From: Thermococcus sp.
Lineage (GTDB): Archaea; Methanobacteriota_B; Thermococci; Thermococcales; Thermococcaceae
Reading direction: 5' to 3'
NCBI GenBank assembly: GCA_027001105.1
Contig: JALTMZ010000187.1
Location: 1-11,385 of the forward strand
Length of the DNA stretch: 11,385 bases
The notes under the pieces: model-generated
Database searches by the model: none
What the model was told of the DNA's origin: nothing
What the model saw: the letters and a program-made list of their open reading frames with translations, nothing else
Shown: positions 1 to 8,702 of the stretch, in pieces
Layout of the letters: each line of letters starts with the position of its first letter
Numbering within the stretch: the first letter of the stretch is position 1
Translations under genes and position numbers: made by a program

Positions 1-971
1 GTCTCTCTTTTTTTCAGTATTTCAATTGTCTGATCAAAGCTTTTTGCTGCAGCGTATGATCCAAATATATGGAGTTCTTTCTGATTCATCAGGGTAAAAC
101 TAACTTTATCTGCAAAGGCATGAATGTTCTGCTGGCCAAAGAGGGACAACCTACCTCCGGGTCTTAATGCCCTAACAGCTTGCTCTATGACAACCGGAAC
201 TCCGCTTGCATCTATGGCAACATCAACCCCATATTTGGTGACTGAGTGGACAATCTCAACAACGTCTTCATTTATGGGATCAACAACCTTTGTTGCCCCA
301 AGCTTTCTGGCAATTTCTCTTCTCAAAGAACTTGGTTCGGAGACTATTATCTCATTGGCACCCGAAATTTGTGCGAGTTTAATAAAAAACGCTCCTATTG
401 GCCCAGCTCCGAATATCAGGATGTTCTCTCCTGGCTTTAAATTCACCTTTTCCCAGTTGTGAACTGCCGTTGTCAGAGGTTCAAATAACACTGCCTTGTC
501 AATATCCATGCCTCTTGGGAGCACATATACCTGCTTAGCCGGGACAACTGCATATTCCGCAAATCCTCCATTTCCGTATATTCCAAGAGTCGTCATTTCT
601 GGACACATGTTTGGATAGCCGTTTCTACAGAACCAGCATTTTCCGCACTTTATATTTGGATCAACCGCTACAAGGTCCCCTACATTAACGTTGTCAACTT
701 CACTTCCTATGTCCACAACCTCCCCAACGAACTCATGTCCAAGTATTGCTCCAGGAGTGGCAGTGTGTCCTGGGGGGACGCTTAGTATGTGCAGGTCAGT
801 TCCACAGATTCCTGCTGCTAAAACCCTCAAAAGGACAAGCTCTTCTTTTCTGACTTTTACAAATTCATTTGGTTTGTATTTTTTTGGAATAATTAGGTCT
901 TTACTCAAATCAGGCTTTGGAACATCCTCAATTACAAGCTTTCCTTCCCCTTTAAATACTGCAGCTTTCAC
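1..971 (-). CDS. Zn-dependent medium-chain alcohol/polyol dehydrogenase, partial; candidate inositol 2-dehydrogenase
   Basis: Last visible gene of the operon; its 3' end lies beyond the left edge, so 323 residues are seen. It is a medium-chain (sorbitol/threonine dehydrogenase-type) NAD(P)-dependent dehydrogenase. The catalytic zinc ligands are C56 (in GICGTD) and H79-E80 (in LGHEF). The structural zinc cysteines are C109, C112, C115 and C123. A GAGPIG nucleotide-binding loop follows. The second Rossmann strand ends in SEP, an acidic residue that usually favours NAD. Residues about 22-44 form an insertion not found in typical members. The GTG start at 971 is chosen because GGGGGTG lies 5 bases upstream; it is 11 bases after the aldolase stop. 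By elimination within the operon it may oxidise myo-inositol to scyllo-inosose, replacing the usual Gfo/Idh/MocA-type IolG. That role is inference; another polyol or sugar-acid substrate is possible. Confidence 0.9.
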   Translation of the reverse strand, partial: MKAAVFKGEGKLVIEDVPKPDLSKDLIIPKKYKPNEFVKVRKEELVLLRVLAAGICGTDLHILSVPPGHTATPGAILGHEFVGEVVDIGSEVDNVNVGDLVAVDPNIKCGKCWFCRNGYPNMCPEMTTLGIYGNGGFAEYAVVPAKQVYVLPRGMDIDKAVLFEPLTTAVHNWEKVNLKPGENILIFGAGPIGAFFIKLAQISGANEIIVSEPSSLRREIARKLGATKVVDPINEDVVEIVHSVTKYGVDVAIDASGVPVVIEQAVRALRPGGRLSLFGQQNIHAFADKVSFTLMNQKELHIFGSYAAAKSFDQTIEILKKRE

Positions 972-982
972 AACAACACCCC

Positions 983-1867
983 CTATATAACCCCAACAGC
1001 TTTCAGTTCCTCCCTTAAACATTGCAATTGATCTTTACTCAAAAAAACTAAAGGACTCCTCAAAACACCCATATCAATACCTCTAAGCTTTAAAGCTGCT
1101 TTGATACCTGAAAGATATGGGTATTTCTTCAATATCTGTCTTATAATCAAAATTCTATCCTGAATCTCTTTTGCCTTGGCTAAATTTCCTGCCCTAAACT
1201 CCTTGTATAACTTAATCACTATTTCAGGAAATGCATTTGCTATCGCTGAAACTGCACCATTCCCTCCCAACACCAAATGGGTGTATATCAATGCATCACT
1301 GCCACCCAGAAATACAAAATCTGGATTCTCCTTTTTTACAGTCATAATAGCATTATAAAACCATGTCACGTCTTTGGAGCTGTCTTTAATCCCAATTATG
1401 TTTCTCAATTTAGCAAGCTCACACAGCGTTTTTACATCAATTTTGTTTCCTGTTCTGCTGGGAATATAATAAATCAGAATTGGAAGATCAACTTCTTGAG
1501 AAACTTTGGCATAGTGCCTCAAGATACCCTCTCTTGACAATGGATAATAATAGGGGACTATCACATGGATTGCGTCAACTCCGATTCTCTCAGCCTCTTT
1601 ACTTAACTTTATGGTTTCCCTTGTGGTTATTGCTCCAGTTCCAGCTATAACAGGCACTTTTCCCTGCACGGCTTCCACGGCTATTTCCATGATCCTGATT
1701 TTCTCATCATTTTCAAGTGAGAACCCTTCTCCATTAGTTCCAAGAAGAAAAAGCCCGTTAACTTTTTTCTTAACCAAAAACTCCAAAAATGATGCAAACT
1801 TTTCTTCGTCAATGCTTTCATCTTCCTTAAAAGGTGTTACAACCGGGGGAAAAATTCCTTCAATCAT
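983..1867 (-). CDS. DapA-fold class I aldolase, probable 2-keto-3-deoxy-6-phosphohexonate aldolase
   Basis: A 294-residue member of the dihydrodipicolinate synthase/N-acetylneuraminate lyase family, which forms a Schiff base with pyruvate. Visible family residues are GTNGEG (43-48, pyruvate carboxylate binding), Y133 and K161 in GIKDSS (the Schiff-base lysine). R138, in the PSRTG segment, matches the position that binds substrate carboxylate in true DHDPS. The ATG at 1867 is preferred over an in-frame start at 1891 because GAGGTGA ends 5 bases before it. The stop codon of the kinase lies inside that ribosome binding site, so the two are likely translationally coupled. Downstream of a 2-keto-3-deoxy acid kinase, the expected reaction is cleavage of a 6-phospho-2-keto-3-deoxyhexonate to pyruvate and glyceraldehyde-3-phosphate. 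A role in lysine synthesis is unlikely here. The unphosphorylated substrate remains possible, as DapA-type KDG aldolases of Sulfolobales accept both. Confidence 0.92.
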   Translation of the reverse strand: MIEGIFPPVVTPFKEDESIDEEKFASFLEFLVKKKVNGLFLLGTNGEGFSLENDEKIRIMEIAVEAVQGKVPVIAGTGAITTRETIKLSKEAERIGVDAIHVIVPYYYPLSREGILRHYAKVSQEVDLPILIYYIPSRTGNKIDVKTLCELAKLRNIIGIKDSSKDVTWFYNAIMTVKKENPDFVFLGGSDALIYTHLVLGGNGAVSAIANAFPEIVIKLYKEFRAGNLAKAKEIQDRILIIRQILKKYPYLSGIKAALKLRGIDMGVLRSPLVFLSKDQLQCLREELKAVGVI

Positions 1868-1872
1868 CAAAA

Positions 1873-1879
1873 TCACCTC
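1873..1879 (-). promoter_or_regulatory. Ribosome binding site of the aldolase, containing the kinase stop codon
   Basis: GAGGTGA ends 5 bases before the aldolase ATG at 1867. Its last three bases are the TGA stop of the kinase, so a ribosome ending the kinase sits on the start signal of the aldolase. This points to coupled translation. Confidence 0.8.
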
Positions 1880-2832
1880 ATTATTTCGCAATACTCTCTG
1901 CCTTTAATGAGCCTTCTAACTTCGTCTCTAATTATATACACTGGATCACCGGGTATGGTATGTGCCAATGCTGCCATAGCAATCCCCCATTCTAATGCCT
2001 CTTTTACATCTTGCTTCTCCAAGTACCTATATACGAAGCCAGCATCAAATGCATCTCCAGCTCCTATCCTGTCAACAACTTCTATTGGATAAGGTTTAAC
2101 TCTGTAAATCCTTCCATCCTTAATTGCCATTGCTCCTTCAGAACCAAGGGTGAGCACAAGGACCTCAGGGCCATATCTTTGATACAGCTCTCGTACAATG
2201 TCCTCATAACTTCCCTCAGCAAGCAGAACACTCTTTGCATCTTCCTTTGTGACAATGAGTATGTCCACCCCTTTGAGAATCACGTCAAGAGCTTTGAACG
2301 CTTCTTCAGGAGACCACAACTTTGCCCTGTAATTAACATCAAACGAAACCTTCGTGCCAAATTCTTTTGCTTTTGTGATCCCCATTTTCACGGACTTTCT
2401 GCAACTTTCGCTCAGTGAAACGGTTATCCCAGTAGTGTGAAATACATCGTATTCAGCGAGCACATCCCAGTTTACTTCATGCGGCTGGATATTAGCAAAC
2501 GCTGAGTTCTTTCTGTCATAAATAACCTCAATCCCCCTTGGTTTTCTGCCAAATTCTATGAAGTACAATCCAACCCTGTATTCCTTTGTCCATATAACAT
2601 TTGATACGTCTACACCATGCTCCCTAATCCGGTTGACTATTAACCTCCCAAGAGGATTATCGGTGAGTTTACTTATCCACGCGGATCTTCCACCAAGCCT
2701 GGCAAAGGCTATCGCAAAATTCGATTCAGCCCCACCAATACTAACTTCGAACTCCTTCGCCTGTTCAATTCGTTCAAAATTCTTCGTTGAGAACCTAATC
2801 ATCGTTTCCCCAAAAGAAACTGCAGAAGGCAT
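1873..2832 (-). CDS. kdgK: PfkB-family 2-keto-3-deoxy-sugar-acid (KDG/KDGal) kinase
   Basis: A 319-residue ribokinase/PfkB-family sugar kinase. The N-terminal GGAESNFA segment (33-40) is the PfkB glycine motif. The C-terminal signature GAGDAF (257-262) holds the catalytic base D260. The DVNYRAKLW segment (165-173) and the YDRKNSAF segment (105-112) are typical of 2-keto-3-deoxygluconate kinases. The expected reaction is ATP-dependent phosphorylation of the C6 hydroxyl of a 2-keto-3-deoxyhexonate in the cytoplasm. The ATG at 2832 is chosen because GGGGTG lies 6 bases upstream. The GTG at 2841, inside that ribosome binding site, would also be in frame but is a poor choice. The gene lies 12 bases after the dehydratase large subunit and 5 before the aldolase. 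It is placed where a pathway would need it, between dehydratase and aldolase. The C4 stereochemistry of the substrate cannot be read from the sequence. Confidence 0.93.
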   Translation of the reverse strand: MPSAVSFGETMIRFSTKNFERIEQAKEFEVSIGGAESNFAIAFARLGGRSAWISKLTDNPLGRLIVNRIREHGVDVSNVIWTKEYRVGLYFIEFGRKPRGIEVIYDRKNSAFANIQPHEVNWDVLAEYDVFHTTGITVSLSESCRKSVKMGITKAKEFGTKVSFDVNYRAKLWSPEEAFKALDVILKGVDILIVTKEDAKSVLLAEGSYEDIVRELYQRYGPEVLVLTLGSEGAMAIKDGRIYRVKPYPIEVVDRIGAGDAFDAGFVYRYLEKQDVKEALEWGIAMAALAHTIPGDPVYIIRDEVRRLIKGREYCEIMR

Positions 2833-2838
2833 TTTAGA

Positions 2839-2844
2839 CACCCC
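2839..2844 (-). promoter_or_regulatory. Ribosome binding site of the sugar-acid kinase
   Basis: GGGGTG lies 6 bases before the ATG at 2832. It overlaps an in-frame GTG at 2841, which is therefore rejected as the start. Confidence 0.7.
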
Positions 2845-4029
2845 TTAAGCTATTATGCCAGTTAGTTCAATTGAAAACTCAATATGTTGGCTTTTCTCTG
2901 CTTTTGTCAGCTTCCCATTTGCAACACGTACTATTTCCTCCAGTATCATCTTCCCACCAATTTCAAGTATTTCGTCAAGAGAAGCATCCTTTGATATTAT
3001 CTCCTCAAAAAGAACGCTCAGGTCAACGTCTATTGCATCACGAAGCTTCCTCGCAGTAGTTGGATTCCCTGTTATTTTAATTACAGGTGAGACTGGAGAA
3101 CCAAGATAGGTTCCCAAACCCGTTGTAAAAAGTATTATATGACTCCCGGCACACATTAGTCCACTTACTGCTTTAACGTCATATCCAGGACCGTCCATAA
3201 AGTACAGACCTCTACCTTTTGGTTTTTCTCCGTAATCAAGGCACCCCTCCAATTGAGCATTTCCGGCCTTTTTTACTGCACCGAGAGATTTTTCCTCTAT
3301 GGTCGTTAGACCCCCCTTTATGTTTCCCATTGATGGCTGAGATCCTATCCAGTCAACCCCTCTTTTGTTAACATCCTCAACAGCTTTCTTTATTCTCCTA
3401 AGAAAATCTTCAGCAACCTCTTTACTTTTAGCCCTTCTTGCTAAGATTTGCTCGGCTCCAACAAGTTCAAGCCTCTCCGTAATTATGGCAGTTCCACCAT
3501 GCTCTATAAGAATGTCCACGGCTTTTCCAACAGAAGGGTTTGAGATTAAGCCAGAAGTGTAGTCAGATGCCCCGCACTTCAAGCCAATAACGAGCTCTTC
3601 AACTCCAGCAGTCTCTCTCCGCGGAGTTAGATTTTCCTTTGCTCTGTTTACAAGTTCAACACCTCTCTCCACTGTCTTATCCATGCCAAGTTCTTGGATC
3701 AACAACGATTCTGCATTTCTACCCCTCTTAGATATTTCATCAGCAAGTTGATGAGCATCGATGCCTTCACACCCGAGACCTACCACTAATGTCCATGCAA
3801 CGTTTGGGTGAGAGCCAACGTTAGCCATGCACCTCAAAAACCGCTTCCTATCTTCCCCAAACATCCCACAAGCGCCTTCTTCTTGAATTATCGGGATTGC
3901 TCCTGTTCTCCTCGCAATTTCCAGAGCTGCATGGTTTGCACATGCCACCGAGGAGAGAACTACGATGTGATTTCTTATCCCAAAGTCCCCATTCTCTCGC
4001 CTCCAGCCTTTTATCTCACCCAACTTCAT
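2845..4029 (-). CDS. UxaA-type hexonate dehydratase, large (C-terminal) subunit
   Basis: A 394-residue protein equal to the C-terminal catalytic part of altronate/galactarate dehydratases (UxaA/GarD family). Conserved blocks in order are GIRNHIVVLSSVACAN (17-32), GLGCEG (84-89), LKCGASD (150-156), GNIKGGLTTIEEKSLG (235-250), MDGPGYD (278-284) and FTTGLGT (301-307). These enzymes remove water across C2-C3 of a hexonate to give a 2-keto-3-deoxyhexonate and need a divalent metal. The ATG overlaps the stop of the small subunit as ATGA, a strong sign of coupled translation and subunit assembly. The family is broad: split members also include the sulfolactate sulfo-lyase SuyAB, and substrates range over altronate, galactarate and others. 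The neighbouring kinase and aldolase favour a six-carbon aldonate. Where altronate dehydratases usually read VPEMFGAE, this one reads LELVGAE (187-193), which may point to a different substrate. Confidence 0.92.
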   Translation of the reverse strand: MKLGEIKGWRRENGDFGIRNHIVVLSSVACANHAALEIARRTGAIPIIQEEGACGMFGEDRKRFLRCMANVGSHPNVAWTLVVGLGCEGIDAHQLADEISKRGRNAESLLIQELGMDKTVERGVELVNRAKENLTPRRETAGVEELVIGLKCGASDYTSGLISNPSVGKAVDILIEHGGTAIITERLELVGAEQILARRAKSKEVAEDFLRRIKKAVEDVNKRGVDWIGSQPSMGNIKGGLTTIEEKSLGAVKKAGNAQLEGCLDYGEKPKGRGLYFMDGPGYDVKAVSGLMCAGSHIILFTTGLGTYLGSPVSPVIKITGNPTTARKLRDAIDVDLSVLFEEIISKDASLDEILEIGGKMILEEIVRVANGKLTKAEKSQHIEFSIELTGIIA

Positions 4030-4295
4030 TTCATCGCCCCCTGATATCTGCTCCTGAGATTATGAATGTGTACATATTCACCAGCCTTTATGTTCCTCGT
4101 AGCGATTCCAATAATTTCCCCGTATTTAATGATGAAATCACCAGCATTTATGTCCCGAATAGCAAATTTGTGTCCTTGGGGGATGTCTTCAAGCAGAATT
4201 ATTTCTCTGCCCCCAACCACAACTTTTTCTCCCTTTTTCAATGGCACTATTGCAGTTGCAACATTATCCTTTCTGTTCATTATCACGAATTTCAT
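4026..4295 (-). CDS. UxaA-type hexonate dehydratase, small (SAF-domain) subunit
   Basis: An 89-residue SAF-domain protein matching the N-terminal part of altronate/galactarate dehydratases, encoded as a separate small subunit as is usual in archaea and many bacteria. Recognisable segments are DNVATA near residue 10, GHKFA near residue 41, a KYGEIIGIAT stretch near residues 57-66 and GEYVHIHNL near residues 71-79, close to the GEWVHTHNL end of UxaA N-terminal domains. It is expected to form a complex with the large subunit encoded next, whose start it overlaps by 4 bases. The ATG at 4295 is used; GAGGT lies 8 bases upstream. An ATG five codons later is possible but has no better ribosome binding site. 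It follows the upstream dehydrogenase after 16 bases. Confidence 0.9.
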   Translation of the reverse strand: MKFVIMNRKDNVATAIVPLKKGEKVVVGGREIILLEDIPQGHKFAIRDINAGDFIIKYGEIIGIATRNIKAGEYVHIHNLRSRYQGAMK

Positions 4296-4311
4296 GATAT
4301 ACTACCTCTGA

Positions 4312-5334
4312 TCACGGCTTTAGAATAACCCTTGGACTAAACCCGGTCTCAGCTTCTCTAATCGCCTTTTCCCAGTCTTCAAGCCTAAAAGGTTTGGATA
4401 TTAATGGTTTTGTTTTCACTTTTCCTTCCCTCATTAGATAAAGAATCTTTTCCCAAGATGTCCACGAAGAGGACAAATGGAAGATCACCTCCACTGCCTT
4501 AAAAACAATCATGTTCCACGGAACAGTTACACTACCCTTGGGGATTCCAAAGGCTATTATCCTTCCAAGATTTCTTGTTATTTGCAAAGCTTGGAGAACC
4601 GCTGGAGCAGCACCGCTTGCTTCAAAGGCGACATCAGCTCCTTTACCATTTGTTAAATACTTTACTTCTGAAACTGGATCTTCTTCGGCATACAATACAT
4701 GATCAGCCCCAAGCTTTTCAGCCAATTCCAACCTGTATTCATCCCTTTCAATCTTTGTGCCAACTATGGCAACTTCAGCTCCCGTTGCTTTAGCCACTTG
4801 GACAGCAAATAATCCAACAGCTCCAGGACCGAAAATAACTACAAATTCCCCAGGTTGCAGGTTTGCTCTCTCATTCAAAGCGTAAACAACGTCAGCCCCG
4901 ATCTCTGTAATGGCTGCTTCTTCAAAGCTCATGTTTTTTGGTATTCTGTGCAAACCGCTCACCGGGACCAAAATTTTTTCAGTGAATGCTCCATTCGCTT
5001 TTATGCCTATCACTTTTTTCTCTGGACAGTGTTGAGGATAGCCAGATTTGCACAGATAGCACTTTCCACAAGTGGAAAATGTCGTCTGGGAGGTAACCCT
5101 ATCACCCTTTTTCCACTCTCCCTTGTCCTCAGCGACAACTCCTGAGAACTCGTGACCCAGAATAATTGGAGGCTCATAAGGATGGCCTTTATCATGGATT
5201 ATCAGCAGATCAGAGGCGCATATTCCCGCAGCTTTTACATCAACAATTATATACCCTTCCCGGCTTTTGGGCTCTGGAACATCTCTAAGCTCAATATTCC
5301 AAGGGCCTTTGGCGTATTTAACAAGAGCCTTCAA
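4312..5334 (-). CDS. Zn-dependent medium-chain dehydrogenase, candidate 5-keto-hexonate reductase
   Basis: A 340-residue medium-chain dehydrogenase. Catalytic zinc ligands are C39 (GICASD) and H61-E62 (LGHEF). Structural zinc cysteines are C89, C92, C95 and C103. The nucleotide-binding loop is GPGAVG (169-174). The second Rossmann strand ends in IVGTKIERDE, so Gly-Thr replaces the usual acidic residue. That suggests NADP(H) or relaxed cofactor use, unlike the two other dehydrogenases of the operon. The start is a TTG at 5334, supported by GGGGGG 6 bases upstream; it lies 36 bases after the hydrolase stop and 16 before the dehydratase small subunit. Its place between ring-opening hydrolase and hexonate dehydratase, plus the cofactor hint, makes it my candidate for reducing 5-keto-L-gluconate to a hexonate. 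It could equally be an oxidising polyol dehydrogenase. Confidence 0.92.
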   Translation of the reverse strand: MKALVKYAKGPWNIELRDVPEPKSREGYIIVDVKAAGICASDLLIIHDKGHPYEPPIILGHEFSGVVAEDKGEWKKGDRVTSQTTFSTCGKCYLCKSGYPQHCPEKKVIGIKANGAFTEKILVPVSGLHRIPKNMSFEEAAITEIGADVVYALNERANLQPGEFVVIFGPGAVGLFAVQVAKATGAEVAIVGTKIERDEYRLELAEKLGADHVLYAEEDPVSEVKYLTNGKGADVAFEASGAAPAVLQALQITRNLGRIIAFGIPKGSVTVPWNMIVFKAVEVIFHLSSSWTSWEKILYLMREGKVKTKPLISKPFRLEDWEKAIREAETGFSPRVILKP

Positions 5335-5340
5335 TTCAGA

Positions 5341-5346
5341 CCCCCC
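5341..5346 (-). promoter_or_regulatory. Ribosome binding site supporting a TTG start
   Basis: GGGGGG lies 6 bases before the TTG at 5334. It is the only good support for the start of the middle dehydrogenase, whose N-terminus (MKALVKYAKG) begins at that TTG in typical family fashion. Confidence 0.65.
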
Positions 5347-5370
5347 AACGATATAGGTAAAAAACGAAGA

Positions 5371-6465
5371 TCAGCCCTTCCCTCCCAATCTCTTTACGAG
5401 CCCGTAAACGGGTTTCCATCCTTCATCTCCCGGAAGCTTGAGATAATCTTCCATCTCTTCTCTTGTTCTAAAGGTCACTTCTTCCACTGGCGGAACCTCT
5501 CCAGGTGGGAATTTCTCAAGAATTTGGTCAATCAGTAGCTCCAAGTATTTAAGTATAAATGCTATAGCTCGTTTTGCTTTTTTTGCATCAGCGAGCGTGG
5601 CTTTTCCAACAACTCCCTCAGGAGTATTTACTATCTCAATTGGAATATGACCCTCAGCACTGCTCCATCTCATTGGTCTCAGCAAGCCATCCACAGCTTT
5701 ATCAAAGTGACCATCCGGTAGATAAGCCCTTGGAGTAGTATCAACTGCTTTGTCCATATCAACCATCTCTTTTGGGAAGAGAAGCAGGGCTATTGACGTT
5801 TCAGCCTCATCCGCATGAACAAAGTCTGTTTCAAATTCTCCTCCTCTTTCTTTGGTTCGGAAGAATTTTCCTGCCGCCCTGTGCCAATCAAGAGCAATGT
5901 ATATCCCCGGCAGCTGATACTTTTTCATAAATTCCTGAATAGCAGATTCAAGAACCCAGAAGTGACCGTGATTGTTTATGAGTATCTGCTTTCTATAGCC
6001 GAGGTTCCAAAGTCCCAGCATGACATCAATTATATAATCCTTCAGGTGGTCCTCCTCAATTATCACTGTTCCAGGCATTCCGTAATGGTGCCAAGGATGG
6101 GAGCCATAGTTTATTGGCCAGGTTATTGCTACGGGTTTTCCTTTTTTCTTCATGTATCTCCTCACGGCTTCACTTATCTGGGTAACATAGAGGGTGTCTG
6201 TCCCCGAAGGTAAGTGGTTGCCGTGAAATTCCGTACTTCCAATAGGAATCAACACAACATCACACTGTCTGACTTCTTCAAAAACCCTGTATCCCGGGGT
6301 TGTTTGAATGTAAACACCGGGCTTAGCCAGTTCTGGCGGACTGGGAATTCCAAATTCCTCCAAAATTCTGTCTATTTCTTCTTCACTTGCAGTCCATATG
6401 TGTTTTTCCAGCCTTCCAACTGGAGTGTTCTCAAATGTTAAATCTTTTGGAATTTCGCGTGACAT
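5371..6465 (-). CDS. iolN: Creatininase-family hydrolase, probable 3-dehydro-scyllo-inosose hydrolase (IolN-like)
   Basis: A 364-residue member of the creatininase fold family. The metal-binding motif reads GSTEFHGNHLPSGTD (76-90), giving E79, H81 and D90 as likely ligands. H166 in NNHGHFW and E222 in the HADEAET segment (217-223) complete the usual two-metal site. About 65 residues precede the first core strand, much longer than in true creatininases. T. maritima IolN (TM0413), which hydrolyses the ring diketone made by IolM to 5-keto-L-gluconate, is from the same family, and here too the gene follows an IolM-like dehydrogenase. There is no sign of creatine metabolism, and the operon contains sugar-acid enzymes, so an amidohydrolase role is unlikely. 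The ATG at 6465 is chosen because a perfect GGAGGTG lies 5 bases upstream; the longer frame to 6501 lacks this. The IolN call rests on family and context. Confidence 0.88.
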   Translation of the reverse strand: MSREIPKDLTFENTPVGRLEKHIWTASEEEIDRILEEFGIPSPPELAKPGVYIQTTPGYRVFEEVRQCDVVLIPIGSTEFHGNHLPSGTDTLYVTQISEAVRRYMKKKGKPVAITWPINYGSHPWHHYGMPGTVIIEEDHLKDYIIDVMLGLWNLGYRKQILINNHGHFWVLESAIQEFMKKYQLPGIYIALDWHRAAGKFFRTKERGGEFETDFVHADEAETSIALLLFPKEMVDMDKAVDTTPRAYLPDGHFDKAVDGLLRPMRWSSAEGHIPIEIVNTPEGVVGKATLADAKKAKRAIAFILKYLELLIDQILEKFPPGEVPPVEEVTFRTREEMEDYLKLPGDEGWKPVYGLVKRLGGKG

Positions 6466-6519
6466 TTTTACACCTCCATTTAGCAAACATCTGAAGCTCA
6501 AAAAAGAATAAAAACGATG
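6466..6519 (-). other. 54-bp spacer between the IolM-like and IolN-like genes with an oligo-T tract
   Basis: This is the longest gap inside the operon. Read on the minus strand, positions 6514 to 6500 are T-rich: TTTTTATTCTTTTTT. Archaeal RNA polymerase can terminate at oligo-T tracts without a hairpin, so some transcripts may stop after the first gene. The gap ends with a strong GGAGGTG ribosome binding site for the hydrolase. No stem-loop stands out. Confidence 0.4.
6471..6477 (-). promoter_or_regulatory. Ribosome binding site of the IolN-like hydrolase
   Basis: GGAGGTG is a perfect match to the archaeal anti-Shine-Dalgarno complement and ends 5 bases before the ATG at 6465. It decides the start against an in-frame codon at 6501, which would place this site inside the coding sequence. 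Confidence 0.85.
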
Positions 6520-7716
6520 TTAGGGCTTTATCAAAACCTTCCCGATGTTGCTTTTCTGCTCACTCGCAAATTTCAATGCTTCAGCTGCATCCTCAAGTTT
6601 GAACCTGTGGGTCACTATTTTTGTCATATCAATTTTTCCGGATGCCATCAGATTAATAACACTTGGGAAGATTCCATGTCCAGAATGCCCCTGGGCTCCA
6701 AAAACCTGCGCTCTTCTAACCTGCAGAACTTCAAATTGAAGAGGAACATGTGTTACAGCCCTTCCAATGGCAACGACTTTTGCGTTAACTTTTTCACCGT
6801 TCCATATTGTCTCTTCAATTGCTGGCCATGTCTTTGGGAAAGCCCCGGCAGCTTCCACATACATATCAGCGCCTTCTCCATGTGTGACTTCAAGTATTTT
6901 TCCGGAAACCGAATCTATTTTAGTTGGGTCAATAACGACATCCGCACCCATTTCCTTTGCTAACTTTTGTCTTGCTTCTGCGATCTCAACTGCTATAACC
7001 TTGGCAGCTCCTGCAGCTTTGGATAGCGCAACAGCTGCCAGTCCTATAGGACCAGCGCCAAATACAACCACGTATGCCCCCGGTCTGAAACCTCCTCCCC
7101 TTTCAAAGATTCCATTGTACGCAACAGAGGTTGGTTCAACTAATGCTCCAGCTTCATAACCTTTTTTCTCCCCGTATCTTTCTACAATTTCTGTTATCTC
7201 CCAGACAACCCTTGCGGGAACAGCAATGTATTCAGCAAAAGCACCATCTCTGCTGAATCCAATTTCTTGGAGGTTGATGCAGTGATTTGGATAACCATCC
7301 CTACAGTGTCTGCAATAGCCACACCATACCATCTCCTCAGCTGTTACTGGTGTTCCAACTTCAAATTTTTCTCCCCACTGATTGTATGCCTTCTCCCCAA
7401 CCTTAACAATTTCACCTGAAAATTCATGTCCGAGAACGCACGGAAATGCTGTAAGCCCTGGATAGAGAATATAGCCATCCTCATCGGATTCGTACATGTG
7501 TATATCAGACCCACATATGCCACATGCTTTAACCTTTATCAGAACTTCGTCCTCTTTGATCTTTGGAATTGGTCTGCGCTCCACCCTAAGTTCAGGATAC
7601 CTCCAAACAAGCCCCCCAAGGTATGTCAATTTGCCTTCAATGTCCTTTGGAGTGGGCTTATATTCGGGTTTTGGATCCCATTTTGCGTACAGAACAGCAG
7701 CCAGCATATCATCCAT
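6520..7716 (-). CDS. iolM: Zn-dependent medium-chain dehydrogenase, probable scyllo-inosose 3-dehydrogenase (IolM-like)
   Basis: A 398-residue medium-chain dehydrogenase, longer than usual because of an N-terminal extension. The segment KDIEGKLTYLG (24-34), the GYILYPG motif (81-87) and the QVRRAQVFGAQGHSGHG stretch near residues 330-345 match what I recall of T. maritima IolM (TM0412). Catalytic zinc ligands are C68, H97-E98 and probably E194. Structural zinc cysteines are C132, C135, C138 and C146. The nucleotide loop is GAGPIG (220-225), and the second strand ends in an acidic residue (AVEIAEAR), so NAD is the likely cofactor. IolM oxidises 2-keto-myo-inositol to a diketone that IolN opens. 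This is the first gene of the operon, behind the TATA box at 7751-7760. The ATG at 7716 has GAGGTG 6 bases upstream; an ATG three codons later is less well placed. Confidence 0.9.
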   Translation of the reverse strand: MDDMLAAVLYAKWDPKPEYKPTPKDIEGKLTYLGGLVWRYPELRVERRPIPKIKEDEVLIKVKACGICGSDIHMYESDEDGYILYPGLTAFPCVLGHEFSGEIVKVGEKAYNQWGEKFEVGTPVTAEEMVWCGYCRHCRDGYPNHCINLQEIGFSRDGAFAEYIAVPARVVWEITEIVERYGEKKGYEAGALVEPTSVAYNGIFERGGGFRPGAYVVVFGAGPIGLAAVALSKAAGAAKVIAVEIAEARQKLAKEMGADVVIDPTKIDSVSGKILEVTHGEGADMYVEAAGAFPKTWPAIEETIWNGEKVNAKVVAIGRAVTHVPLQFEVLQVRRAQVFGAQGHSGHGIFPSVINLMASGKIDMTKIVTHRFKLEDAAEALKFASEQKSNIGKVLIKP

Positions 7717-7722
7717 TGTGAA

Positions 7723-7728
7723 CACCTC
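7723..7728 (-). promoter_or_regulatory. Ribosome binding site of the IolM-like dehydrogenase
   Basis: GAGGTG lies 6 bases before the ATG at 7716. An in-frame GTG at 7725 is part of this site and so is unlikely to be the start. Confidence 0.8.
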
Positions 7729-7750
7729 ATGCCGGTTTAAGATACAAACA

Positions 7751-7760
7751 ATATATAAGA
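7751..7760 (-). promoter_or_regulatory. Archaeal TATA box of the inositol-type operon
   Basis: On the minus strand the segment reads TCTTATATAT. Its centre is about 40 bases before the ATG at 7716. A start of transcription some 25 bases downstream would fall near 7730, leaving a short leader that includes the GAGGTG ribosome binding site. No better TATA-like element lies closer to the gene. The BRE upstream of it is only weakly like consensus. Confidence 0.6.
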
Positions 7761-7766
7761 ATTGTC

Positions 7767-7779
7767 TTTAAAATTTAAA
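7767..7779. repeat. Second copy of the palindrome core, next to the TATA box
   Basis: TTTAAAATTTAAA shares 12 identical bases (TTTAAAATTTAA) with the palindrome at 7917-7935. It starts 7 bases upstream of the TATA box as read on the minus strand, where an archaeal activator can help recruit TBP or a repressor can block TFB. The match could be partly due to low complexity. Confidence 0.4.
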
Positions 7780-7916
7780 CCACACTGTAGAACATTCCTG
7801 CACTTAAAGGTAGATATACGTAGATCAAAATTCTTTAAGGAATCTCTCTGTCCATCAAATATCCAGTTTTTGGAATATCTTCAGTAGAGAACATGCAATT
7901 TACTGAGGTTTTCGAT

Positions 7917-7935
7917 GTTAAATTTAAAATTTAAC
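7917..7935. repeat. Perfect 19-bp palindrome, candidate Lrp-type operator
   Basis: GTTAAATTTAAAATTTAAC has 9-bp perfect inverted arms (7917-7925 and 7927-7935) around one central base. It lies 24 bases after the stop of the RAM-domain gene and about 160 bases upstream of the operon TATA box. No T-run follows on the minus strand, so it is not an obvious terminator. A+T-rich palindromes of this size are typical binding sites for archaeal Lrp/AsnC proteins, two of which are encoded next to it. Binding is inference. Confidence 0.5.
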
Positions 7936-7958
7936 TTAAGCCAAGAAATATTGAGACT

Positions 7959-8204
7959 TCATTTAATCCTCTTAGATATGATTATTGTAGTAATTTCTTT
8001 AACTCCCTCAACAGTTGAGATATTGTAAAGCAAATTTGAAAGCTCCTCCCTCGTTTCAGCATGAACATGCACACACATGTCGTATTCCCCAAGAACCTCA
8101 TATAAATGCAAAACTCCCTTCATCCTGGATATTTCATCTTCAACAGGAACCTGTCGATTCTTAGGTTGAGTTTTTATAAAAAGAAATGCCATGATCCCCT
8201 TCAC
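7959..8204 (-). CDS. Stand-alone RAM (Lrp/AsnC ligand-binding) domain protein
   Basis: An 81-residue protein consisting only of the RAM domain of Lrp/AsnC regulators, a beta-alpha-beta fold that binds small molecules and drives oligomer assembly. The pattern is AFLFIKT at the first strand, a central GEYDMCVHVHA segment typical of RAM domains, and a final strand TTIIISK. There is no helix-turn-helix, so it cannot bind DNA alone. The GTG at 8204 is chosen because AGGGGTGAT ends 4 bases upstream; the ATG at 8192 gives a 77-residue form that starts right at the first strand and is a fair alternative. It follows the full-length Lrp protein by 15 bases and is surely co-transcribed. It may form mixed oligomers with that partner and tune its response to a metabolite. 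The ligand is unknown. Confidence 0.82.
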   Translation of the reverse strand: MKGIMAFLFIKTQPKNRQVPVEDEISRMKGVLHLYEVLGEYDMCVHVHAETREELSNLLYNISTVEGVKEITTIIISKRIK

Positions 8205-8208
8205 TCCG

Positions 8209-8217
8209 ATCACCCCT
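8209..8217 (-). promoter_or_regulatory. Ribosome binding site of the RAM-domain protein
   Basis: AGGGGTGAT ends 4 bases before the GTG at 8204. It favours that start over the ATG at 8192, which has only a weaker AAGGGGATC directly upstream, and over a GTG at 8213 that lies within this site. Confidence 0.6.
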
Positions 8218-8219
8218 AC

Positions 8220-8672
8220 CTACAATAACTTGTCAAACTTAATTCTGTAATTCCTAATTATAAGCAATGTCTGAGTTGATATAATTCCCTCCATCTTAGC
8301 CAAAGTGATTGCCAGAAATTCTCTTAACTCCTCCATGTTCCTGACAACGATTTTGGCCATAAAATCGCATGTCCCTGTGACCTCATATAGCTCTACAACT
8401 TCCTTACGCTTTTGCAGTGCCTCTGCAACCTCTCTTCTCACTCTTGCCTCCACGCTTATTTCAACGAATGCCATGATATCATATCCAAGTCTTGAAAGGT
8501 TTATATTTGCCGAATAACCTTCAATTATTCCTTTTTCTTCAAGCTTTCTTATCCTGTTTTTAACTCCCATTACACTCAACCCGACTTTTTTGGCAATATC
8601 TGTGAGTGACATTCTTGCGTTATCTTTTAATAAAAGTAAAATTTTCTTATCTATCTCATCAAGATCTGGCAT
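8220..8672 (-). CDS. Lrp/AsnC-family transcriptional regulator
   Basis: A 150-residue protein of normal Lrp length. Residues about 5-52 form the winged helix-turn-helix: LDEIDKKILLLLKDNAR, then SLTDIAKKVGLS (22-33) and the recognition helix VMGVKNRIRKLEEKGII. Residues about 65-145 form the RAM domain, with the EVTGTCDFMAKIVV segment that lines the ligand pocket in this family. It is cytoplasmic and acts as dimers or octamers on DNA. The ATG at 8672 is chosen because GGGGGGTGG lies about 7 bases upstream and the protein then starts MPDLDEID as usual; the longer frame to 8699 has no support. It lies 30 bases after the mannosidase and just before a RAM-only protein and the operon promoter. It is the natural candidate regulator of both neighbours and of itself. 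The effector is unknown. Confidence 0.92.
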   Translation of the reverse strand: MPDLDEIDKKILLLLKDNARMSLTDIAKKVGLSVMGVKNRIRKLEEKGIIEGYSANINLSRLGYDIMAFVEISVEARVRREVAEALQKRKEVVELYEVTGTCDFMAKIVVRNMEELREFLAITLAKMEGIISTQTLLIIRNYRIKFDKLL

Positions 8673-8702
8673 TCGACTCCACCCCCCAATAATAAACAAT
8701 TT

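Follow-up and report, generated by a model that had tools for sequence, protein, structure and literature searches.

A putative inositol-catabolic operon in Thermococcus-type archaea

The window analyzed here is the whole 11,385-nucleotide contig JALTMZ010000187.1 (C187) of Thermococcus sp., from assembly GCA_027001105.1 (genome G000; 80% complete, 1.5 Mb in 245 contigs). Eight genes, all on the minus strand and spanning positions 7716 down to 3, encode IolM, IolN, a zinc-dependent medium-chain dehydrogenase/reductase (MDR), the small and large subunits of a UxaA-type dehydratase, a PfkB kinase, a DapA-fold protein, and a further MDR, hereafter the middle and third MDRs (IolM also being an MDR). 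They may constitute an inositol-catabolic operon of Thermococcus-type archaea working through the steps proposed below, a reading that we regard as evenly poised. IolM and IolN are firm members of their families as judged from profile matches, while we infer the first oxidation and the substrates of the lower half of the route.

Layout of the operon

The eight open reading frames (ORFs) are confirmed and follow each other, in the 5' to 3' direction of the transcript, as listed.

6520..7716, minus strand: iolM, predicted scyllo-inosose (2-keto-myo-inositol) 3-dehydrogenase, zinc MDR; NF041097, 563.7 bits
5371..6501, minus strand: iolN, predicted 3-dehydro-scyllo-inosose hydrolase of the creatininase family; NF041098, 347.9 bits; start probably the ATG at 6465
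4312..5334, minus strand: middle zinc dehydrogenase (MDR) with ADH_N/ADH_zinc_N domains; putative 5-keto-L-gluconate reductase forming D-idonate
4026..4295, minus strand: UxaA-type dehydratase small subunit (SAF); PF08666, 8.1e-14
2845..4029, minus strand: UxaA-type dehydratase large subunit; PF20629, 277 bits, and PF04295, 108 bits; putative D-idonate dehydratase
1873..2841, minus strand: PfkB-family, probable 2-keto-3-deoxy-hexonate kinase; best solved match the KDG kinase 2afb
983..1891, minus strand: DapA/NAL-fold aldolase, putatively acting on KDPGal (or KDGal); PF00701, 270 bits; likely start the ATG at 1867
3..1022 (gene 3-971), minus strand: third zinc dehydrogenase (MDR), truncated where the contig ends; start probably the GTG at 971; candidate inositol 2-dehydrogenase

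Here KDG and KDGal stand for 2-keto-3-deoxy-D-gluconate and 2-keto-3-deoxy-D-galactonate, and KDPGal for phosphorylated KDGal. With the likely starts, the intergenic gaps are 54, 36, 16, -4, 3, 5, and 11 bases, so that the eight packed genes with gaps of -4 to 54 described in an earlier sequence-only reading of this DNA are recovered. The iolM-iolN gap is 54 bases with the IolN ATG at 6465, and 33 or 18 with earlier starts; this ATG and the GTG at 971 of the last gene were located by hand count. Upstream of iolM, the transcript order is a GH38-type gene, an Lrp/AsnC gene, and an AsnC ligand-domain gene, followed by a spacer of 233-242 bases, depending on start choice. The third MDR is complete in three relatives (376, 376, and 359 residues), and the window's fragment matches the full-length gene of stretch L032 at 99% identity.

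Conservation across Thermococcaceae

The order of the eight genes is kept in three other genomes (G003, G006, and G034), with protein identities of 63.7-99.8%. The operon proteins of G003 and G006 are 95-99.8% identical to those of the window, and those of G034, which belongs to a different genus, 63.7-89.8%. These three genomes are 95-99% complete, unlike G000. The large UxaA subunit is found in 4/94 Thermococcaceae genomes, IolN exceeds its cut-off in the same four, and none of the 90 family genomes lacking an IolN over cut-off yielded UxaA-large. Since the order is kept in three further genomes and UxaA-large and IolN fall in the same four of 94, the arrangement is not due to chance. The four genomes span two genera (g1 and g6); because three of them share one genus and the two genes are linked, their co-occurrence does not amount to four separate events. 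P0003 (IolN, 76%) and P0246 (UxaA-large, 60%) likely represent a fifth case; they come from the same source, each has a longest contig of 10,669 bases, and a shared contig is inferred. The co-occurrence across archaeal genomes named as a check in the sequence-only reading is seen in these four genomes. Its "archaeal" label is right, as IolN and UxaA-large both have their closest named proteins in Thermococcus.

IolM and IolN

IolM scores 563.7 bits against the NCBIfam model NF041097 (cut-off 450) and IolN 347.9 bits against NF041098 (cut-off 245); both are curated equivalog models, and both proteins belong to the families that they define. The IolM- and IolN-like assignments made from the sequence alone are therefore borne out by profile searches, each by more than 100 bits over the cut-off. 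The best match of IolM in the PDB is 3ip1, which we take to be TM0412, with 492 bits, the next best reaching 157. In IolN, residues E91, H93, D102, and H178 are invariant among 31 aligned relatives and align with the E, H, D, and H of the solved creatininase-family chains 3lub and 3no4, these residues being candidate metal ligands. The name "3-dehydro-scyllo-inosose hydrolase" is already given by NCBI to some IolN-type proteins, so the annotation of this single gene is public.

Proposed pathway

The confidence attached to each step is our personal judgement. The third MDR might, in a call that could fall either way, oxidize myo-inositol to 2-keto-myo-inositol (step 1). IolM would very probably convert the latter to 3-dehydro-scyllo-inosose (step 2), as its family membership suggests, and IolN, with the same high confidence, would open the ring to yield 5-keto-L-gluconate (step 3). 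We slightly favor a reduction at C5 by the middle MDR, giving D-idonate and bypassing the Thermotoga epimerase IolO (step 4), and lean towards a dehydration of D-idonate to KDGal by the two-subunit UxaA-type enzyme (step 5). PfkB would likely phosphorylate KDGal (step 6), and by a narrow preference the DapA-fold enzyme would cleave the phosphorylated product into pyruvate and D-glyceraldehyde-3-phosphate (GAP; step 7). The net reaction would be inositol + NAD+ + ATP -> pyruvate + GAP + NADH + ADP.

The third dehydrogenase and the first oxidation

The IolG model reports no protein over its cut-off in any of the four operon genomes (best 190.5 bits, cut-off 355). The third MDR lies inside the operon in all four, and the sequence-only reading had assigned it to inositol oxidation. 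Neighborhoods of IolN elsewhere bear on this assignment. They were surveyed in the best 80 of 538 IolN loci, many on short contigs, so that neighbor counts are lower bounds; the IolG and IolO clusters are anchored by one tested representative each (489 and 334 bits, above the respective cut-offs). An IolM-type gene lies no more than 6 kb from IolN in 57 of these loci, a gene of the GFO/IDH/MocA (GFO) cluster containing IolG in 41, and an IolO-cluster gene in 46. Relatives of the third MDR (38-45% identical) lie beside IolN in L037, L039, L048, L049, L055, and L085, with IolM in five of the six, and others occur at the IolN loci L180 and L181 (41-43%). None of the six has a GFO/IolG-cluster gene within 6 kb, compared with 41 of the 74 other IolN loci (Fisher p = 0.011). 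Because these IolN-adjacent relatives in six bacterial loci lack a nearby IolG-type gene, it is plausible that the third MDR oxidizes inositol in place of IolG. As a side observation, L180 and L181 are Thermotoga-like IolN-IolM-MDR-IolO clusters in genomes taken from an archaeal phylum, which may reflect either recent transfer or binning contamination.

In a tree of MDR proteins (48 of 59 rows), the Thermococcus third MDRs group with eight IolN-locus MDRs and eight Chloroflexi/Acidobacteria-type rows (support 97/98). The closest solved structures to the third MDR are threonine dehydrogenases (Tdh), and its best NCBIfam models are those of Tdh, far below cut-off. A role as Tdh was nevertheless rejected, the host's own Tdh-like MDR (L188) falling outside the 97/98 group.

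Several of these results weigh against an inositol-specific role of the dehydrogenases. Both the middle and the third MDR score best on Tdh models, and neither exceeds the cut-off of any NCBIfam model shown (25 models for the middle MDR). Among the six loci, L039, L049, and L055 are near duplicates and some contigs are truncated, leaving about four independent cases, for which the test is weak. The IolN-linked clade is partly a product of construction, since most rows of the tree were picked from IolN loci. For seven of the eight Chloroflexi/Acidobacteria-type rows, the locus also shows a GFO/IolG-cluster gene, so that the relative of the third MDR is not a simple replacement of IolG in Chloroflexi-type loci; the role given to the third MDR in the sequence-only reading thus keeps its plausibility from the six loci and loses force from those carrying both genes. 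Finally, distant GFO proteins are present in all four operon genomes (top scores of 173-190 bits with the IolG model) and could perform step 1.

This last point leads to an alternative that we rate as rather unlikely, in which an unlinked GFO dehydrogenase would catalyze the first oxidation and the third MDR would be the reductase or act on another polyol. The coexistence of both gene types in Chloroflexi-type loci is consistent with it, as is a pair of GFO genes in G003 that adjoins a predicted solute-binding protein (judged from its sequence start). All these GFO proteins are nonetheless under the IolG cut-off, an unlinked IolG being rejected as the four genomes yield only such distant members, and relatives of the G003 protein with 66-75% identity in P. 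horikoshii, P. yayanosii, and T. nautili indicate a family that is not tied to the operon; the third MDR itself sits within the operon in all four genomes. Pairs of GFO-type dehydrogenase genes beside a predicted solute-binding protein were seen at L192 642-4136 and L193 2648-6335, one member having relatives in several Thermococcales.

The missing epimerase

IolO exceeds its cut-off in none of the four operon genomes, where its model returns two matches in all, both below 20 bits (best 19.8, cut-off 300); an IolO hidden elsewhere in these genomes was rejected on this ground. A domain search recognizes no epimerase family among the operon proteins. An AP_endonuc_2 TIM-barrel gene beside the G034 operon was considered as IolO and rejected, as it resembles, weakly, CbiR (48.9 bits, cut-off 105) and MJ1311. 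Of 14 control genomes, the same models match 9 for IolO (1 above its cut-off) and 12 for IolG (4 above), with T. maritima among those matched by both and the over-cut-off genomes not being named. Since IolO is not found over cut-off, the D-idonate branch would be the simplest fit. For the same reason, the "complete" route of the sequence-only reading, for which all families are indeed present, requires a direct reduction of 5-keto-L-gluconate that skips the IolO step.

A Thermotoga-like route, in which an unrecognized epimerase would form D-tagaturonate, the middle MDR would produce D-altronate, and UxaA would yield KDG, appears quite unlikely. It would suit the dehydratase, a member of the galactarate/altronate family, and the IolO-cluster genes found near IolN in 46 of the 80 loci; against it stand the IolO scores, the CbiR/MJ1311-like nature of the gene near the G034 operon, and the domain search of the operon.

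The UxaA family acts on D-altronate. When 5-keto-L-gluconate is reduced at C5, the product can be D-idonate or L-gluconate, both of which share the C2/C3 configuration of D-altronate. Of the two, only D-idonate leads to KDGal and D-GAP.

Dehydratase, kinase, and aldolase

Returning to the direct reduction favored here, its candidate enzyme, the middle MDR, is encoded between iolN and the dehydratase genes in all four genomes. The lower-half families named in the sequence-only reading, a two-subunit UxaA-type dehydratase, PfkB, and a DapA-fold enzyme, are all recognized. The dehydratase displays PF08666, PF04295, and PF20629 over cut-off, as expected for a two-subunit UxaA/GarD enzyme, and its subunit genes overlap by 4 bases. 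The best solved match of PfkB is the KDG kinase 2afb, which we take to be from T. maritima (171 bits; NYRAKLW versus NYRARLW), and, of its four top-scoring solved relatives, three carry the name KDG kinase. It stays outside the KDG/KDGal kinase model NF041332, its best NCBIfam match (349.4 bits, cut-off 440), and the IolC model (185 bits, cut-off 300). These matches suggest that PfkB probably works like a KDG kinase.

The aldolase is the weakest call. Its PF00701 domain is clear (270 bits), and it stays outside the archaeal KD(P)G aldolase model NF040954 (170.4 bits, cut-off 390). Two features tell against a KDPGal aldolase: the protein passes the DapA model TIGR00674 (235.4 bits, cut-off 206.15) and shares with DapA an RTG stretch that reads LTG in YagE. 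In the PDB, it matches DapA (189 bits) about as well as YagE (181 bits), a protein labelled probable KDGal aldolase. Because the DapA cut-off is passed and these matches are nearly tied, the assignment rests on context. A role in lysine biosynthesis is not favored, as the operon context speaks against it and orthologues at least 56% identical occur in only 6/94 genomes, each beside the kinase gene; many DapA-fold paralogues, none above 40% identity, occur across Thermococcaceae. Two of the six, G019 and G113 (aldolase 57-58% identical, PfkB 70-72%), are genomes in which UxaA-large and an IolN over cut-off were not found. In G019 (L202 6655-8522), the pair accompanies a TctABC tripartite tricarboxylate transporter (TTT) and an iron-dependent alcohol dehydrogenase (Fe-ADH), and in G113 (L203 6023-7896), a TRAP transporter (DctP/DctM) with Ldh_2, 2-hydroxyacid dehydrogenase, and FAA-hydrolase-family genes. 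With TTT or TRAP transporter genes next to the pair, these loci support a portable carboxylate/sugar-acid cassette, which speaks against lysine biosynthesis.

A hexuronate or hexonate operon, whose IolM- and IolN-like proteins would act on other rings or lactones, is very unlikely: UxaA, the KDG-kinase-like PfkB, and the aldolase would suit any hexonate and the PfkB-aldolase pair occurs in G019 and G113, where neither UxaA-large nor an IolN over cut-off was found, yet IolM and IolN exceed their equivalog cut-offs by wide margins and UxaA-large keeps to the family genomes that have IolN.

IolN loci outside the operon genomes

The 80 surveyed IolN loci yield no UxaA homologue, one DapA-like gene (29%), and nine PfkB-like genes (27-35%), which counts against the proposed link between ring opening and the lower half; from these numbers, IolN is not generally accompanied by this lower half. 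Ten genomes with other IolN loci were searched for UxaA-large, with matches in two (33-44% identical). In an even sample of 398 genomes from the phylum to which the L040 genome belongs, presumably Thermoproteota in GTDB, 21 carry an IolN over cut-off. These IolN proteins comprise a Thermotoga-like form at 554-560 bits, with a partial one at 399 bits, a window-like form at 302-333 bits, and a short form at about 246-261 bits. IolM, a short IolN, and IolO homologues stand together in 7 of 14 stretches (L177, L178, L179, L183, L184, L185, and L187), and L187 also holds an IolG homologue (43%); in L176, only an IolN-like gene is present. At L186 4416-8807, from another archaeal genome (G291), the genes of large and small UxaA subunits (38% and 41%) adjoin those of IolM, an IolN-like protein, and a GFO dehydrogenase; sugar ABC transporter genes are close by. 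The IolM-IolN core is thus wider in archaea, and its association with UxaA is seen once outside Thermococcus.

The short IolN-like proteins are 31-34% identical to that of the window and may be a separate subfamily. In L174 (1145-3223) and L175 (682-2760), a window-like long IolN (72%) is immediately followed by a GFO/IDH/MocA gene, and L175 has a hexulose-6-phosphate-synthase-like gene nearby.

Comparison with known pathways

The inositol pathway of Thermotoga maritima, attributed to Rodionova 2013, reportedly consists of IolG, IolM, IolN, and IolO. Both the IolM and the IolN family, with their two predicted reactions, and the clustering of the genes are shared with the Thermococcus operon. 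The operon differs in that none of the four genomes has IolG or IolO over cut-off, and in that an MDR reductase, UxaA, a kinase, and an aldolase are encoded in the same operon. The Bacillus-type pathway comprises IolG, E, D, B, C, J, and A; inositol is likewise oxidized there to 2-keto-myo-inositol, the proposed entry here, whereas no IolE-, IolD-, or IolB-type family is listed for the window proteins. The Thermotoga work (Rodionova 2013) is cited in PMC5931981.

Paracoccus sp. 43P is described as possessing a branch from 5-keto-L-gluconate through D-idonate, KDGal, and KDPGal to pyruvate and GAP (PMC12632266). By this pathway description, it shares the proposed lower half and differs in beginning at L-glucose and L-gluconate. 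The L-glucose/L-galactose pathway of Luteolibacter LG18 also passes through 5-keto-L-gluconate and epimerizes C4 first (PMC12632266). The shared intermediate is the likeness to the route proposed here; its C4 epimerase and its D-tagaturonate/D-altronate branch, as there described, are the differences. The Thermotoga pathway is also said to epimerize first.

Titles and opening parts of abstracts, in a search covering few subscription journals, revealed no such Thermococcus pathway in the literature on archaeal inositol catabolism. If the reading is correct, Thermococcales would possess a dedicated inositol-degradation operon that joins the ring opening of Thermotoga to the lower branch of Paracoccus without an epimerase, with an MDR perhaps replacing IolG. 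This mix of steps in one operon is otherwise described in separate bacterial pathways, and functions would be provided for archaeal proteins generically annotated as "threonine dehydrogenase-like", "UxaA family", or "DapA-like". A gene disruption system exists for T. barophilus (PMC5852573).

Regulation, flanking genes, and possible role

The region upstream of iolM contains the following features.

7717..7958, minus strand: promoter region with the conserved GTTTAAATTTTAA (7768-7780) and, as a TATA-like element, TTATAT, from the alignment of four genomes
7959..8213, minus strand: AsnC ligand-binding domain on its own, a candidate partner for sensing an effector; PF01037, 3.9e-13; kept in all four genomes
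8220..8699, minus strand: Lrp/AsnC-type protein, candidate operon regulator; PF13412 and PF01037; upstream of iolM in all four genomes
Upstream of the Lrp/AsnC gene, minus strand: GH38-type protein; mannosylglycerate hydrolase model, 466 bits, far under the cut-off of 1138

The Lrp pair is thus also upstream of the operon in G003, G006, and G034. The 13-base GTTTAAATTTTAA lies just upstream of the TATA-like element in all four genomes, with a second copy in G034. A 14-base form, with one mismatch allowed, occurs once in the window, compared with a mean of 0.14 in shuffled windows, at least one match being seen in 23 of 200 shuffles. The argument for GTTTAAATTTTAA is thus its conservation, not its count. 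GTTTAAATTTTAA may be linked to the Lrp pair. A near-palindrome, GTTAAATTTTAAATTTAAC, is found about 130-150 bases upstream of GTTTAAATTTTAA in three genomes (window 7726-7958, minus strand), and the two are possibly paired Lrp sites.

Thermococcales make inositol osmolytes. The operon could serve the turnover of self-made inositol (the osmolyte di-myo-inositol phosphate, inositol lipids or glycans) instead of growth on imported inositol, a role that we consider doubtful; solute pools of heat or salt stress would then return to glycolysis through the epimerase-free D-idonate branch. The hints behind it are the lack of a recognized linked transporter, an inositol-1-phosphate synthase domain, and osmolyte-type neighbors (ManC, PMM, GH130, PhnP-like, and GH38). 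In the two relatives whose flanking ORFs were searched, these include no recognized transporter family, a point that also counts against the catabolic reading as such. The inositol-1-phosphate synthase domain is present in the three near-complete operon genomes and was not found in the incomplete G000; it is not specific, as it also occurs in 5/5 searched relatives without the operon.

The GH38 gene is near the operon in three of the four genomes, G003 and G006 included, all of a single genus, and was not seen in the G034 stretch; GH38 domains are detected in the G006 orthologue of the window's protein. A PhnP-like metallo-beta-lactamase (MBL) gene, ManC, and phosphomannomutase (PMM) lie near the operon in two genera (L032 14237-18673, L034 1561-6230), the PhnP-like gene scoring 146-155 bits on the PhnP model, below its cut-off of 272. 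L032 also shows a mannosyl-3-phosphoglycerate phosphatase gene near the operon, and both genera have a GH130 gene of the beta-mannoside phosphorylase type nearby (L032 1131-2252; L034 17232-19477).

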